Position numbers and translations under genes: made by a program
The notes under the pieces: model-generated
What the model was told of the DNA's origin: nothing
The model's input: the letters and a program-made list of their open reading frames with translations, nothing else
Database searches by the model: none
Origin: a virus
Length of the DNA: 21,055 nt
Virus record (IMG/VR): IMGVR_UViG_3300009503_001226
Location: 1-21,055 of that record
Strand: one strand, 5' to 3'
Shown here: positions 4,595 through 13,957 of the stretch, piece after piece
Layout of the letters: every line of letters begins with the position of its first letter
How positions within the stretch are numbered: the first letter of the stretch is position 1

Positions 4595-4777
4595 TGGACA
4601 TCCGTATATCTCCCGGCCGAAGCCCCGCCACGCGGCCACCAGGGGCCTAGAAACGGCCAAACGGTACCGGTGGGGGGGCGGCTCTCGGCCCCATGTGCAA
4701 GGCGTGTCCGCGTGGCCCCTGCGGAAACGACGCTCCCCGCCACATCCGTCCCCAATGTCGCAGTCACGGAGGAAAGC

Positions 4778-7180
4778 ATGAAGATTGAATGGATCGACGT
4801 AGACCGGCTGATTCCCTATGAGCGGAACCCGCGACAAAACGACCAGGCCGTCGAGGCCGTGGCCCGGTCCATCCGGGAGTATGGCTTCAAGCAACCAATC
4901 GTGGTGGACGCCGATGGGGTGATCATCTGCGGCCACACGCGCTGGAAGGCGGCCCAGAAGCTGGGTCTGGAGAAAGTGCCCGTCCACGTGGCCAAGGACC
5001 TGTCGCCCGAGCAGGTCAAGGCCTACCGCATCGCCGACAACAAGACGGCCGAGCTGGCCGAGTGGAACTACGAGCTACTGCCCATCGAGCTGGGCGAGCT
5101 TCAGGGGATGAACTACGACCTGGGCCTCTTGGGCTTCTCGGAAGAGGAACTGGCCGAACTGCTAGACCCGGGCGTGAAAAAAGGCCTGTGCGACCCTGAC
5201 GAGGTGCCCGAGCCGCCCGATGAGCCGATCACCCGGCCTGGCGACCTGTGGCTCTTGGGCGACCACCGGCTGCTCTGTGGCGATGCGGGGAAGGCCGAGG
5301 ACGTGGACCGGCTGCTGGATGGCAACCCGGTGCACCTGGTGAACACCGACCCGCCGTACAACGTGCGGGTCGAGCCCCGATCGAACAACGCCATCGCTGC
5401 GGGCTTGAGCTCGTATCCTTCGGCCGAAGAGCTGCAGGGCGGGCGTCGTTGGCGTGGGCACCACCAGTCGATGGACGTGGCCCGGCACCCGGAGAAAGCC
5501 AAATCCACGCACCGCAAGCTGCGGGCCAAGGACCGGCCGCTGGAAAACGACTTCGTTTCGGACGAAGAGTTCAACCGGCTTCTGCACGCCTGGTTCGGCA
5601 ATATCGCGCGGGCGCTGCGTCCCGGCCACGCCTTCTACATCTGGGGCGGCTATGCGAATCTGGGCAACTATCCCCCAGTGCTCAAGGAGCACAAGCTCTA
5701 CTTCTCGCAAGGAATCGTGTGGGACAAAGAGCATCCCGTGTTGACCCGAAAAGACTTTCTTGGGTGCTTCGAACTTGCGTTCTACGGGTGGAAGGAGGGC
5801 GCGGGCCACCGCTTCTTCGGCCCCAACAACGTGCCCGACCTGTGGCAGGTCAAGAAGGTCAGCCCGCAGAAGATGCTCCACTTATGCCTTCACCCCGAGA
5901 GCCTGGTCCTGACGGAGGCTGGCTATCGCCCGATTCGGTCCCTTCAAACGGGCGACCGCGTTTTTTCAGGCGACGGCACCTTCCACGATGTCGTCCATGT
6001 GTCGTCGCATCCCTATACGTCCGAGTACCTGTATCGGATCACGGCCAAGGGGGGAAACATCACCACGGAGGCCTCGGACAACCACCCGTTTCTCATCTGG
6101 CGTCCCGCACGCTGCGGCCGGAGCATCGTGGGCGGCGAGGTGGGTTGGGTGCGCGCCGATGAAGTGCAGGCCGGCGATTACACGATGACCCCCGTCCTCG
6201 CCGGCGATGGTCCCGATCCCTTTCCTGAGCTGGACGAAGACTTCTGGTTCTTGTTCGGCTTGTACCTGGCCCAGGGGCATCTACAGGCGGCCGGCCACGG
6301 GGATCACCGCTACCCGGTCTTCTCGATCCACAAGAGGCGGCAGGATTTGGCTGCGCGAATCTGCAAGCAATGGCCCCGCGCCAGCGAGTACGACCCGAAC
6401 GATTACGCGCAGCGGCCCTCCAGCGGGCTGGTGGTGATGGCCTTCGACGCCGATGCCGGAGAGCGGTTCGAGGCCCTGGGGGGCCGTCACGCTCATGCCA
6501 AGCGGATGGCGCCGGAAGTCTTTTCCCTGCCGCGCGCGAAGCGCAGCGCCATCCTGCACGGTTGGCTCAACGGCGACGGCTGCAAGGTCCACGATCGCCC
6601 GTATTGGCAGGGGAACACGGTGTCGGCGGATCTGGCCGCGCAGTTGGCCTTGCTGGCCGAGTCGGTGGGCTACCGAGCGAACGTCTACGCATACGATCCC
6701 CCTCCCGACCTCGGCGGAGTCGGCGACCGACGCTTTCAGAGCCGGCGGCGGGTCTACTACCTCTACTTTTACGAACAGACCCAATTGGCCAAGCGTGGTT
6801 GTCCCACCTGGGTGGAGCACGGCGGCCAGGAGTACTCGCTGCGGCGCGTTAAGAGCGTAGAACGGGTGCCCTACGGAGGGCAGGTATGGAATCTCAGTAT
6901 CGAGGGGCACCCGTCGTTTCAGACGGCTGTCGGGCTATCGCACAACACCGAAAAGCCCGTGGAGCTGGCCGTGCGGGCGATCCAGTACTCGTCGCTTGCC
7001 GGCGAGAACGTGTTGGATCTGTTCGGCGGCAGCGGCTCGACGCTCATCGCGGCCGAGCAGACCGGGCGGCGTGCGTTCCTGATGGAACTGGACCCGCTGT
7101 ACTGCGACACCATCGTCCAGCGCTTCGAAAACTTCACGGGCAAGAAGGCGGAGCGAAAAAGATTGGAGGCAGCGGTATGA
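4778..7180 (+). CDS. ParB-like domain/DNA methyltransferase fusion, interrupted by an intein
   Basis: The ATG at 4778 is preceded by GGAGG and begins at the known start of the ParB-like domain; the upstream in-frame extension is low-complexity and rejected. The precursor is 800 residues. Residues 1 to about 95 form a ParB/sulfiredoxin-like domain, including I-I-C-G-H-T-R and Y-R-I-A-D-N-K. Then comes an N6-adenine/N4-cytosine methyltransferase: catalytic motif DPPY at 191-194 and, after the intein, the S-adenosylmethionine-binding FGGSGS at 749-754. Motif IV lies before motif I, as in the beta-type arrangement. An intein occupies residues 370-723 and splits the K-M-L-H-L/T-E-K-P-V-E-L segment; splicing would leave a 446-residue enzyme. 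Such phage enzymes usually modify phage DNA, probably against host restriction. The target sequence cannot be read from the gene. It overlaps the following HNH gene by ATGA. Confidence 0.9.
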   Translation: MKIEWIDVDRLIPYERNPRQNDQAVEAVARSIREYGFKQPIVVDADGVIICGHTRWKAAQKLGLEKVPVHVAKDLSPEQVKAYRIADNKTAELAEWNYELLPIELGELQGMNYDLGLLGFSEEELAELLDPGVKKGLCDPDEVPEPPDEPITRPGDLWLLGDHRLLCGDAGKAEDVDRLLDGNPVHLVNTDPPYNVRVEPRSNNAIAAGLSSYPSAEELQGGRRWRGHHQSMDVARHPEKAKSTHRKLRAKDRPLENDFVSDEEFNRLLHAWFGNIARALRPGHAFYIWGGYANLGNYPPVLKEHKLYFSQGIVWDKEHPVLTRKDFLGCFELAFYGWKEGAGHRFFGPNNVPDLWQVKKVSPQKMLHLCLHPESLVLTEAGYRPIRSLQTGDRVFSGDGTFHDVVHVSSHPYTSEYLYRITAKGGNITTEASDNHPFLIWRPARCGRSIVGGEVGWVRADEVQAGDYTMTPVLAGDGPDPFPELDEDFWFLFGLYLAQGHLQAAGHGDHRYPVFSIHKRRQDLAARICKQWPRASEYDPNDYAQRPSSGLVVMAFDADAGERFEALGGRHAHAKRMAPEVFSLPRAKRSAILHGWLNGDGCKVHDRPYWQGNTVSADLAAQLALLAESVGYRANVYAYDPPPDLGGVGDRRFQSRRRVYYLYFYEQTQLAKRGCPTWVEHGGQEYSLRRVKSVERVPYGGQVWNLSIEGHPSFQTAVGLSHNTEKPVELAVRAIQYSSLAGENVLDLFGGSGSTLIAAEQTGRRAFLMELDPLYCDTIVQRFENFTGKKAERKRLEAAV
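5885..6946 (+). mobile_element. intein with degenerate LAGLIDADG (DOD) homing endonuclease
   Basis: The 354-residue insertion begins at C370 (C-L-H-P-E-S-L-V-L-T, block A) and ends H-N at 723, with Thr724 as the first C-extein residue. This is the standard chemistry: Cys1, a terminal Asn that cyclises, and a +1 nucleophile. Block B is S-D-N-H-P-F-L-I-W and block F is G-Q-V-W-N-L-S-I-E-G-H-P-S-F. Two DOD motifs lie between: L-F-G-L-Y-L-A-Q-G near 492-500 and L-H-G-W-L-N-G-D-G near 593-601. The acidic residue of the first is replaced by Gln499; the second keeps Asp600. The flanking extein reads continuously as a normal methyltransferase once it is removed. Splicing competence looks intact; endonuclease activity is doubtful. 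Confidence 0.93.
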
Positions 7181-9000: not shown

Positions 9001-9096
9001 GGTTGTGATCCTTTCGTCGCTTCGGTTTGGGTTGCCTCGTCAGGCGGCCGGCACCCATCCGGCCGCGACGCGGACCTCCGTGCCCGCGTTTCGGCT

Positions 9097-9948
9097 TCAG
9101 GGCATCGCGTCGTACTTCTTGGCCAACCGGCGGAACTCGGCCTTGATCTGGTCCTGTGGGATGGCGTCGGAAATCCATCCGTACTGCTTGCCGCCGTGGA
9201 TGCGGGCGTAGCCTTTTCCCCAGGCCAGGTAGCCCAGGAGGCGTTCCGTCTCGCTCTGGCCCGGGCCCGACTTCTTCCAGCCCCCCGTCGGGGCCTTGGG
9301 GTTCCAGGTGGGCATCCGCTTGGCCGCCAGGGCCCGCTCCACCAAGCCCAGGCAGACCTGAATCCAGCCGGCGACCTTGGTGGGGTTGAGCGAGCCGGAG
9401 AACACGCGGAACTCGACGGTGTCCTTGGTCCCGCGGGCGAGATTGGTCAGGTTCAAGGCGTGGTAGCGGTCACGGTCCAAGGCGGGCTTGGCCGACTTGT
9501 CGCTTCCGTACTTCCGCACCCCGCCGCAGTACCTGCCCCGCTCGCGGTTCTTGGTGCCGGTGATCGCGTAGAGGCCCTTTTCCAGGTAGGCGACGATGGT
9601 GACCAGCCGGGCCAGGGCCTCGCTCGGCCAATCGCGACTCCAGCCGACATGGACGTGGACGCCGCAGGAGGCGTTGACCCGGTGCCCCTTGGCCTCAAGC
9701 GTGCTGAGCACCTCGATTACCTGGCGGATGCCTTCTTCGCCTTGGAGCACGGGGCTGACGATTTCGCACTTGTGGCCGCCATTGCCGTTGTCGATGGAAC
9801 CGTCCGCTTCGGCCTTCCAGCCGGCCGGCAGGTACGGCACCTGGATTCCGCGGCGGTAGGGGCCGATGCGCAGCCCGTCGTTTCGCACGGCGCTGTCGGG
9901 GGCGATCGTCTCGACCTCGATTCCGAAGGTGAGTTCGTTGGCGTTCAT
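9097..9948 (-). CDS. putative amidoligase (ATP-dependent COOH-NH2 ligase)
   Basis: The 283-residue protein begins MNANELTFGIEVE, the typical start of the amidoligase family (PF12224), a branch of the glutamine synthetase-like fold. Conserved elements include F-G-I-E-V-E at 8-13, E-I-V-S-P at 62-66, C-G-V-H-V-H-V at 95-101 and T-V-E-F-R-V-F-S-G at 177-185. The Glu and His residues bind metal and ATP, and Arg181 probably contacts phosphate. The family joins a carboxylate to an amine using ATP, and the targets are often unknown peptides, metabolites or cell-wall groups. The start has GAGGGG six bases upstream. A class II amidotransferase two genes downstream could supply ammonia. A perfect 9-bp palindrome and a repeat shared with the HARE-HTH gene lie upstream and suggest regulation. 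Family is confident; substrate unknown. Confidence 0.9.
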   Translation of the reverse strand: MNANELTFGIEVETIAPDSAVRNDGLRIGPYRRGIQVPYLPAGWKAEADGSIDNGNGGHKCEIVSPVLQGEEGIRQVIEVLSTLEAKGHRVNASCGVHVHVGWSRDWPSEALARLVTIVAYLEKGLYAITGTKNRERGRYCGGVRKYGSDKSAKPALDRDRYHALNLTNLARGTKDTVEFRVFSGSLNPTKVAGWIQVCLGLVERALAAKRMPTWNPKAPTGGWKKSGPGQSETERLLGYLAWGKGYARIHGGKQYGWISDAIPQDQIKAEFRRLAKKYDAMP

Positions 9949-9964
9949 GGTTATCCCCTCGATG

Positions 9965-9990
9965 GTGTAATGTTCGTGCGTACATTACAC
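9965..9990 (-). promoter_or_regulatory. palindrome, candidate operator or 5'-UTR hairpin of the amidoligase operon
   Basis: GTGTAATGT at 9965-9973 and its exact reverse complement ACATTACAC at 9982-9990 are separated by 8 bases. The right arm touches copy A of the 90-bp repeat. The palindrome lies 17 to 42 bases upstream of the amidoligase ATG, just before its GAGGGG ribosome site. A dimeric repressor site or an mRNA hairpin that limits ribosome access would both fit. Confidence 0.6.
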
Positions 9991-10079
9991 AGGAGCCATG
10001 AACTCGCGAGAACATCAAGCGGGATTCCCGCCTGTGGGGCCGGATTTTTCGGAATACTTTCGGGCCGCTCGGTAGCACC
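9990..10079 (-). repeat. 90-bp repeat copy A, upstream of the amidoligase gene
   Basis: It aligns without gaps to 10911-11000 (copy B); by hand count 61 of 90 bases agree. Identical blocks sit at the same offsets: CAGGAGCCATG (9990), CATCAAGCGG (10013), GGAATACTTT (10051) and GTAGCAC (10072). Mismatches show no three-base rhythm, so it is probably a regulatory element rather than a conserved peptide. Confidence 0.8.
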
Positions 10080-10260
10080 GCCTCACGCTTGGGGCCGGCT
10101 TGGGACTAACGCTTTCGGTCGGCCGGCCGGAAGATGGGGGCTTAAGACGGGCGGGGTCGTTGCCGGGCCAGGGTGCGGGGGTCGCGCAGTGTTGGCCACG
10201 TGGGGCCCACCGTGGCCGCGTGTGGCGTTGTCTGCGGGAAGTGGCAGTTGGGGGCCCAGG

Positions 10261-10293
10261 CCAAAAGAAAACCCCGGGAGATTCCCCGGGGTT
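10261..10293 (-). terminator. rho-independent terminator of the HARE-HTH gene
   Basis: On the minus strand AACCCCGGG and CCCGGGGTT form a perfect 9-bp stem (10270-10278 with 10285-10293) with a 6-base loop, followed by a T-rich tail (TTTTCTTTTGG, complement of 10261-10271). It lies about 20 bases after the stop of the HARE-HTH gene, as expected for an intrinsic terminator, and it separates that gene from the amidoligase operon. Confidence 0.88.
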
Positions 10294-10314
10294 GGGCGAC
10301 CGGCGCGTTGGGCT

Positions 10315-10860
10315 TCACGCCCTGACGAACTTGCCGCGCTCGACTTTGCGGAAGCGGGACTCGGCCCCCTTGGCCGCGATCTCCCGCGCGATGGCTGCGT
10401 AGAGCGTCCGATCGGGCGTCTTGCCGGCGGGCGAACGCCAGTAGCCCTTAGCCTCGGCCTCGGCGACGATTTCCTTGGCCGTCATCGGCCGGCCCGCTTC
10501 TTCCAGCACGCGGGCGGCGGCGTCCAGGCCGCTGGTGCGATTGGGCTTGGACTCGCCTTTGGTCGGGCGCTTGCGTGGCTTGGCCTCGATGGCCCGGGTG
10601 CCTGGGATGGCGCTGTCGGGGACTGCTCCTTCAGCGGCCACTTGCGCCTCGGCCTGTGCGGCCTGCCGGCCGGCGCGCCTCGGCTTGTCCGCTTCGCCCC
10701 GCAACCGCTGGGCGCTTTTGATGCGGACCTTCTTGCCCGTGGCCAGGTTCGTGGCGTCCCAGCCGCCGTGGCGGCTTTCCGCCTCGATCCGCACCTGGAC
10801 CAGTCGATCCGACACCTTGGCGGCGTAGATGCCGCCGATTCGCACTTCGTTCTTTTTCAT
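10315..10860 (-). CDS. HARE-HTH domain protein with N-terminal small beta-barrel
   Basis: The ATG (complement of 10858-10860) follows GGAGG with a six-base spacer; a longer frame from 10920 has no ribosome site. The 181-residue product has three parts. Residues 1 to about 52 look like a small beta-barrel ([29 protein letters not shown]). A basic, Ala-rich linker follows to about residue 108. The C-terminus is a HARE-HTH winged helix: [22 protein letters not shown]-x-x-T-L-Y-A-A-I, [11 protein letters not shown]. This fold links chromatin, restriction and transcription proteins to DNA and may sense modified DNA. Here it may bind phage or host DNA. A terminator follows; a 90-bp repeat precedes it. 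Confidence 0.82.
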
Positions 10861-10910
10861 GGCACACCTCCGATTGGGATAGGAACAACGGTTCGCAACA
10901 CACCGTCTGA

Positions 10911-11000
10911 CAGGAGCCATGTTTCGGCCAGCGCATCAAGCGGATTTCCGGCCACATCGGACGGAATTCCTGGAATACTTTTTCGCGGAGCCGTAGCACG
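10911..11000 (-). repeat. 90-bp repeat copy B, upstream of the HARE-HTH gene
   Basis: Matches copy A (9990-10079) at fixed offsets with no gaps, 61 of 90 bases. It starts 51 bases upstream of the HARE-HTH ATG and ends 2 bases before the plus-strand ATG at 11003, so it fills the divergent intergenic region. It may hold the promoter or a shared control site for minus-strand transcription. Confidence 0.8.
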
Positions 11001-11002
11001 CC

Positions 11003-11221
11003 ATGACGGACAGTAACGCCCAAGGACGGAATCCCCTTAACCCTCAGGCGTTATCCCTGGAGGACGTGGCCCGGATTCTCTCGGCGGCCGGGCCGAAGCC
11101 CGTGACAGTTGCCATGCTCCGCGATGATATCGACTACGGCGCCCCGACCAACGCGGATGGGACGATGAACCTAGTCCACTACGTGGCTTGGCTGGTAAAG
11201 GAACTTGCCCGTGGCGATTGA
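11003..11221 (+). CDS. small protein before terminase, 72 residues
   Basis: I do not recognise this with certainty. The ATG at 11003 opens the packaging module, and the end overlaps the start of the terminase large subunit gene by 11 bases, which supports coupling. The product is probably a small helical fold, with S-L-E-D-V-A-R-I-L-S-A-A and V-T-V-A-M-L-R-D-D-I resembling a helix-turn-helix. The C-terminus H-Y-V-A-W-L-V-K-E-L-A is similar in style to a segment of the terminase N-terminus (F-R-Y-A-A-W-L-V-E-L), so the two may share a domain. Position suggests a terminase small subunit or DNA-recognition role, but the length is short for that family and this is inference. The ribosome site is weak (GGAG 12 bases upstream). 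Confidence 0.72.
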   Translation: MTDSNAQGRNPLNPQALSLEDVARILSAAGPKPVTVAMLRDDIDYGAPTNADGTMNLVHYVAWLVKELARGD

Positions 11222-13487: not shown

Positions 13488-13698
13488 TCCATCCCAAGCC
13501 CCAAGTCCCACGTCCCAGGCTAGCCCCCCGCGTGGCATTGCCTGCCCTCGATGCGGGTGCTGCCACTTGCGCACCACGCACACCGAGCCATTACGAAACG
13601 GCCGCATCCGCCGCCGCAAGGTCTGTCGGCATTGCGGCCGACGCATGGTGACCTATGAGTCGCCACCATCCCAACGGGTGGCGGATCGCTATATGTAG
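13480..13698 (+). CDS. NrdR-like zinc-ribbon protein, 72 residues
   Basis: The ATG at 13480 overlaps the terminase end. Residues 22-25 (C-P-R-C) and 49-52 (C-R-H-C) form a zinc ribbon, and the intervening R-I-R-R-R-K-V-C with the trailing R-R-M-V-T-Y-E follow the pattern of the N-terminal ribbon of the NrdR repressor (R-R-R-x-C, then R-F-T-T-x-E). NrdR binds boxes ahead of ribonucleotide reductase genes. This protein has the DNA-binding ribbon but not the ATP-cone, so it would not sense nucleotides in the same way. A proline-rich stretch (residues 4-18) encoded by seven-base repeats precedes it. The C-terminus D-R-Y-M lies inside a 26-bp direct repeat. A small transcription regulator or DNA-binding packaging factor fits; not proven. 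Confidence 0.72.
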   Translation: MDDPSQAPSPTSQASPPRGIACPRCGCCHLRTTHTEPLRNGRIRRRKVCRHCGRRMVTYESPPSQRVADRYM

Positions 13699-13850
13699 CA
13701 CGATTTCGATCTTTTTGGCGAATTGGCGGACAGGTTGCGCCCAATTGGCATATGTAAGAGATAGGCGGACTAGCCCTGTGGCAACCCGTGGCGAGCTCGT
13801 GGCCGTCCCCCGCTGGGCAGGGCTGGATCGCTATATGTAGCACGATTTCG
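13683..13850 (+). repeat. 26-bp perfect direct repeat flanking a spacer between terminase and portal
   Basis: The 26 bases at 13683-13708 recur exactly at 13825-13850, 142 bases apart. Both begin GGATCGCTATATGTAGCACG. Weaker similarity (GGCGAA, then GACAG) continues about 35 bases further at nearly equal spacing. The first copy includes the last codons and stop of the zinc-ribbon gene, and the second copy would encode the same D-R-Y-M-stop in another frame. A partial third ATATGTA lies near 13750. Confidence 0.85.
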
Positions 13851-13957
13851 GAATTCTGGGCGAAAAGCTCCGACAGTTCGGCCTTCCGCCGGGTAGGTCA
13901 AATAGTAGGGGGACGTTCCGCAGTGAGGCAGGTTCGCGTTCGCCGGAGAAACCGCAG

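Follow-up and report, generated by a model that had tools for sequence, protein, structure and literature searches.

A repeated element ahead of amidoligase and HARE-HTH genes is probably a bipartite promoter of planctomycete phages

The window considered here, the whole stretch of DNA that was analysed, is a complete IMG/VR virus record (21,055 bases); it raises the question of why two minus-strand genes, encoding an amidoligase and a HARE-HTH protein, are preceded by similar 90-bp sequences. Positions 9990-10079 and 10911-11000 align without gaps with 61/90 identities, exactly as an earlier sequence-only reading had counted, and a shift of one base gives 62/90. This is the top 90-base pair of the whole window by a margin of ten (the runner-up scores 52); five block-shuffled windows reached maxima of 50 or 51 (48-51 for the top three pairs of each), and the best pair between the window and its own reverse scored 55. 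Four blocks are identical in both copies (CAGGAGCCATG, CATCAAGCGG, GGAATACTTT and GTAGCAC). Mismatches are spread 7/11/10 over the codon positions in the frame of a short plus-strand ORF, which bears out the earlier view that this is not simply a shared coding segment.

On the minus strand, each copy contains the motif GCTTGATG(T)-N11-CATGGCTCmTGTGT, with A-rich tracts about 11 bp apart upstream of it. The TGTGT end lies 38 nt from the amidoligase ATG in copy 1 and 47 nt from the HARE-HTH ATG in copy 2, and each gene has its own Shine-Dalgarno (SD) sequence. This placement at the 5′ ends of both genes agrees with the proposal of a common control element for minus-strand genes. The interval first reported covered the element and cut off its gene-proximal end, as the -10-like boxes begin at 9987 and 10908. 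A plus-strand small terminase gene starts at 11003, where copy 2 ends, so this region is divergent. A family profile built from relatives recovers the two copies on the minus strand at 39.5 and 27.0 bits, and the next site in the window scores -7.4, leaving n = 2 copies of the element (Table 1).

Table 1. Coordinates of the two element copies, the genes that they lead and neighbouring features of the window.
Feature	Position	Strand	Basis or remark
Copy 1 -10-like box, CATGGCTCCTGTGT	9987..10000	-	family consensus CATGGCTCATGTGT, 14 positions 80-100% conserved
Copy 1 spacer, 11 nt, weakly conserved, fixed length	10001..10011	-	gap of 11 in 506/509 matches
Copy 1 -35-like box, GCTTGATGT	10012..10020	-	family consensus
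Copy 1 upstream A-rich tracts, UP-element-like	10021..10060	-	A-frequency peaks of family alignment
Palindrome TGTAATGT-N8-ACATTACA, perfect 8-bp arms, operator-like	9966..9989	.	adjoins copy 1 -10-like box, overlapping its last bases
Shine-Dalgarno GAGGGG, amidoligase gene	9955..9960	-	sequence
Amidoligase gene, led by copy 1	9097..9948	-	Pfam Amidoligase_2, E=2.5e-25
Copy 2 -10-like box, CATGGCTCCTGTCA	10908..10921	-	family consensus, profile
Copy 2 spacer, 11 nt	10922..10932	-	fixed family gap
Copy 2 -35-like box, GCTTGATGC	10933..10941	-	family consensus, profile
Copy 2 upstream A-rich tracts	10942..10981	-	family alignment
Shine-Dalgarno GGAGG, HARE-HTH gene	10867..10871	-	sequence
HARE-HTH gene, led by copy 2	10315..10860	-	Pfam HARE-HTH, E=2.9e-14
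Intrinsic-terminator-like hairpin, T-rich tail, ends HARE-HTH unit before copy 1	10270..10293	-	terminator scan; the scan itself shows no excess over shuffles here
Type II hammerhead ribozyme just after amidoligase gene	9026..9096	-	Rfam RF02276, 42.4 bits, gathering 37
25-codon ORF inside copy 1, judged accidental	9998..10075	+	relatives' alignment
25-codon ORF inside copy 2, judged accidental	10919..10996	+	relatives' alignment

Further copies in related phages, for which the sequence-only reading had suggested a search, proved abundant. Loci carrying relatives of the terminase and amidoligase were gathered, followed by a pattern search of public collections; a loose first pattern on viral contigs had returned mostly chance matches and one true relative (L111). 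The family comprises 509 profile matches, 364 of them distinct, in 188 related phage or prophage loci, with up to 11 per locus or cluster and all copies within one locus on one strand. The consensus, drawn from 85 diverse representatives of a set whose related sequences are not independent, is GCTTGATGT-N11-CATGGCTCATGTGT(G), and the 11-nt gap is found in 506/509 matches to a profile that itself favours fixed spacing. Within one phage, copies vary freely outside the two boxes. Upstream of the boxes the DNA is 55-62% AT, compared with 40% overall, and A-frequency in the family alignment peaks near -37, -27, -16 and -5, so that maxima recur roughly every 11 bp. Such spaced A-tracts resemble the curved DNA or alpha-subunit contact sites that lie upstream of promoters.

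The copies are firmly linked to gene starts. An SD-preceded start codon, picked by a simple SD/ATG rule, lies within 140 nt downstream in 322/348 distinct testable copies (93%; median distance 47 nt), and 320 of these 322 starts are at 30-79 nt and 318 are ATG; in controls such starts were found for 128/360 copies in the opposite direction and for 298/1092 random places. With this link, and with tight clustering in host genomes (see below), the copies do not show the scatter without regard to gene starts that the sequence-only reading had named as evidence against a control element. Consecutive copies are spaced by a median of 618 nt, and a terminator-like hairpin precedes the next element in 45/207 inter-element segments versus 4 in shuffled sequence. 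Together, the start codons downstream and the terminators between elements define a unit of promoter, gene and often terminator. On this comparative evidence, the repeat in the window probably represents a bipartite, phage-specific promoter that occurs twice on the minus strand, a reading to which we assign a probability of roughly 0.8.

Two non-promoter readings were weighed against the same alignments. The 25-codon plus-strand frames (the first begins MNSREHQAGF...) both open with an ATG preceded by AGGAG and end at stop codons that align, and might thus encode a pair of microproteins. Yet each of the three plus-strand registers is open at a similar frequency (57, 62 and 55 of 85), conservation ignores codon position, and L205 and L148 have lost the start codon; the odds of this reading are accordingly very low. 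A tblastn search of the 25-aa peptide against annotated phage genomes found nothing, and a small protein-coding gene was rejected, as neither frame nor start is conserved across relatives. A structured RNA leader common to both genes, whether riboswitch or ribozyme, would suit the position just upstream of start codons and the presence of hammerhead ribozymes in the same cluster. We nevertheless consider it highly improbable: the 85 diverse copies gave no consensus fold on either strand (shuffles also gave zero energy, so this comparison has little power), single-sequence folding gave z ~ -0.7, with windows folding no better than shuffles, and the repeat has no Rfam match.

The boxes do not belong to a familiar promoter class. 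Under sigma-70 criteria of a TTGACA-like -35 and a TATAAT-like -10 (A at 2, T at 6) 16-18 nt apart, a scan of the region for sigma-70-type promoters found no site: TTGATG resembles a -35, but the second box, CATGGCTCATGTGT, contains no TATAAT-like hexamer, is not rich in AT and is unlike any known -10. A sigma-70-type promoter was therefore rejected, as was a sigma-54 promoter, for which TGGC is present by eye and no conserved GC stands at the -12 place. In some phages a variant, GGTAACTGACTG, stands in place of or beside the standard -10-like box. Variant leaders were observed in L129, L136, L137, L138 and L269 and before the amidoligase genes of L209, L211, L213 and L217; here the -35-like box is kept or altered and the second box is replaced by GGTAACTGACTG or CAACTGACTG, and L138 and L141 have both box types together.

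The information content of the element is high for a plain promoter, and its single orientation and many copies per phage are also what would be expected of an operator, bound by a repressor or activator at every unit in the manner of stoperators, with the true core promoter elsewhere or weak. The palindrome beside copy 1 would fit such a role. However, the core itself is not palindromic, its near-constant distance from the start codon is that of a promoter, and the surroundings offer no other recognisable promoter-like sequence. A LexA/S24-type repressor gene, the one type searched for, is present in only 6/50 records, which makes such a repressor unlikely as a general binder. We regard a mainly operator function as unlikely. 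The earlier suggestion of a promoter plus operator is supported in its first part, a promoter being most probable, and in its second by an operator-like sequence at one copy: the palindrome (9966-9989) lies where transcription of the amidoligase unit should begin, and copy 2 has none. Relatives have similar palindromes at the equivalent place upstream of the amidoligase gene, for example GATGTTCGCATGTACATC, some of them beside diverged boxes, and the sequence looks like a putative operator of the amidoligase unit alone.

Around 30 gene families, mostly of 50-130 aa, lie downstream of the element. The amidoligase is the most frequent (64 loci), and most of the other element-led families tested gave no informative match. 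The order of element-led genes differs between phages, and the finding of small genes from so many families in varying order between elements could indicate a recombination or boundary sequence for the exchange of island gene cassettes, with any promoter role secondary. We think this very unlikely, because copies within a phage differ except in the boxes, unlike a site homogenised by exchange, orientation and spacing are always tied to start codons, and portable promoter-gene-terminator units may alone explain the shuffling.

The distribution of the promoter-like element points to the phages rather than to their hosts. Scanned with an exact pattern, 84,980 species genomes yielded 53 matching stretches, all from Planctomycetota and mostly Pirellulales by their titles; among sampled planctomycete genomes the element was present in 7/392, with none in the control. 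Across 12 host genomes (6.6-10.8 Mb), almost every match falls within one of 1-4 tight clusters per genome, and the reversed pattern gave 0 matches. In SV_7m_r and K23_9 the cluster is located between prophage replication and packaging genes, with the terminase adjoining and a serine recombinase in the region. That the signal is missing elsewhere in the host genome argues for a phage-specific factor and makes it unlikely that a host factor, one of the two binders first proposed, acts alone. Taken with the lack of a sigma-70 -10, this absence suggests that a phage factor is probably needed.

A candidate for this factor is encoded by the phages themselves. The SV_7m_r prophage specifies a 204-aa protein with marginal Pfam matches to sigma regions 2 and 4; among this protein and its relatives, 14/14 matched the PHROG 'RNA polymerase sigma factor', and a profile of these sigma-like proteins retrieves ECF sigma structures. 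An AlphaFold2 model, poor without an alignment, reached a pLDDT of 81.5 with 14 relatives, and its top Foldseek matches were ECF sigma factors, at low TM-scores (~0.3) that are expected if the two sigma domains are differently placed. The gene is present in 25/36 element-bearing virus records (E<=1e-23), with one further weak match, and usually lies 8.5-15 kb transcriptionally downstream of the last element; 9/10 element-bearing records without it end <9 kb beyond their last element. It was not found in the window, which ends before the expected place, and a close relative, L221, has one. The gene also occurs in 9/14 related records with no strict element copy, so it is a group-wide gene that does not track the element. 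On these sequence and model comparisons, a link between sigma factor and element is plausible. More broadly, the ECF-type sigma family of planctomycete phages is diverse (L359:10016-10630 (-) and L365-L398), and L290 and G448 apparently have two such genes.

We consider the phage-encoded ECF-type sigma the leading trans-acting candidate, more specific than the HARE-HTH protein; that it reads the element is about half as probable as the promoter assignment itself. A co-factor role for the HARE-HTH protein, proposed earlier as a binder of the element, is possible because its gene is present in 48/50 related records, though its family makes up few (11) of the element-led loci. A HARE-HTH domain is also found in the delta subunit of the RNA polymerase of Firmicutes, and the HARE-HTH protein could therefore be a polymerase partner. 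In the proposed mechanism, the A-tracts and the -35-like box would recruit RNA polymerase, the DNA would melt at or just after the -10-like box, 11 nt away, and a short leader containing the Shine-Dalgarno would start there. As the same type of start signal stands before each gene, the amidoligase and HARE-HTH genes would form separate transcription units, and the ECF-type sigma encoded downstream of the cluster would supply the phage factor. A wider proposal, which we put forward tentatively and at somewhat less than even odds, is a new promoter class specific to phages of Planctomycetota. Host RNA polymerase with a phage ECF-type sigma would jointly switch on a conserved island in which the amidoligase, HARE-HTH and numerous small proteins are encoded as portable promoter-gene-terminator units; HARE-HTH might act as a delta-like partner, and type II hammerheads would trim the transcripts.

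Comparable arrangements exist in other phages. Host RNA polymerase carrying the phage sigma SaPh711_gp47 reads the late promoters of phage 7-11, eight in number with the consensus GTAAtg-(16)-aCTA (PMC8948821). Like these and the gp36 promoters of phiEco32, the element would be a repeated phage-specific promoter paired with a phage-encoded sigma, bipartite as in 7-11: the motif recurs in one orientation at a fixed distance before gene starts, is absent from the rest of the host, and occurs in phages that also encode a sigma. It differs in that the 7-11 promoters serve late genes, whereas in planctomycete phages and prophages GCTTGATGT-N11-CATGGCTCATGTGT leads small genes grouped in a reverse-strand island, and the sigma link is putative.

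In cluster K mycobacteriophages, the start-associated sequences (SAS/ESAS) include a 13-bp SAS, GGGATAGGAGCCC, positioned 3-7 bp from the start codon and overlapping the ribosome-binding site (PMC3203893). With 11-19 copies per genome, SAS resembles the element in its single orientation, its position before many unrelated genes (non-structural for SAS) and its absence or near absence from the host. The element is, however, 34 bp long plus A-tracts and lies 30-79 nt from the start with the ribosome-binding site outside it, and identity with SAS was rejected on sequence, distance and this separation; AGGAGCC is found in both, on the opposite strand here, and is a coincidence. The 13-bp stoperators of L5 and other cluster A mycobacteriophages, which have a role in transcription regulation (PMC3203893), are similarly asymmetric and numerous in one phage, but the element is bipartite and fixed before start codons. 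Nine cloned intergenic repeats of halovirus HF2 all had promoter activity (PMC8707807). These too are repeated intergenic sequences, but they belong to an archaeal virus with archaeal transcription, comprise 58-bp and 29-bp repeats with AT-rich motifs, and bear no sequence relation to the element. The open literature searched holds no description of the element or of planctomycete phage promoters.

With the element at their starts, hundreds of functionally uncharacterised small phage genes fall into one regulon-like set; early or accessory phage clusters often hold host-takeover or anti-defence genes. The element offers a concrete candidate pairing of promoter and sigma, might serve as a phage-specific expression signal in planctomycete hosts, and provides a sequence tag for locating planctomycete prophages.

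Several other features of these phages were observed. The hammerhead in the window separates the amidoligase gene from the minus-strand gene that follows, presumably within the unit transcribed from copy 1. Type II hammerheads are also present in L147, L149, L154 and L201, and a hammerhead-like pattern was found in 91/235 related loci; their occurrence in prophages was already known (PMC3088659). A ParB/methylase-like gene at 4670-7180 (+) has an apparent intein-like insertion (CLHPESLVLTEAGYRPIRSLQTGD ... VGLSHNT) that its SV_7m_r prophage homologue does not contain. Finally, a second direct repeat of 40 nt (88%; GGATCGCTATATGTAGCACGATTTCG...) lies on the plus strand between the terminase and portal genes, at 13683-13722 and 13825-13864.
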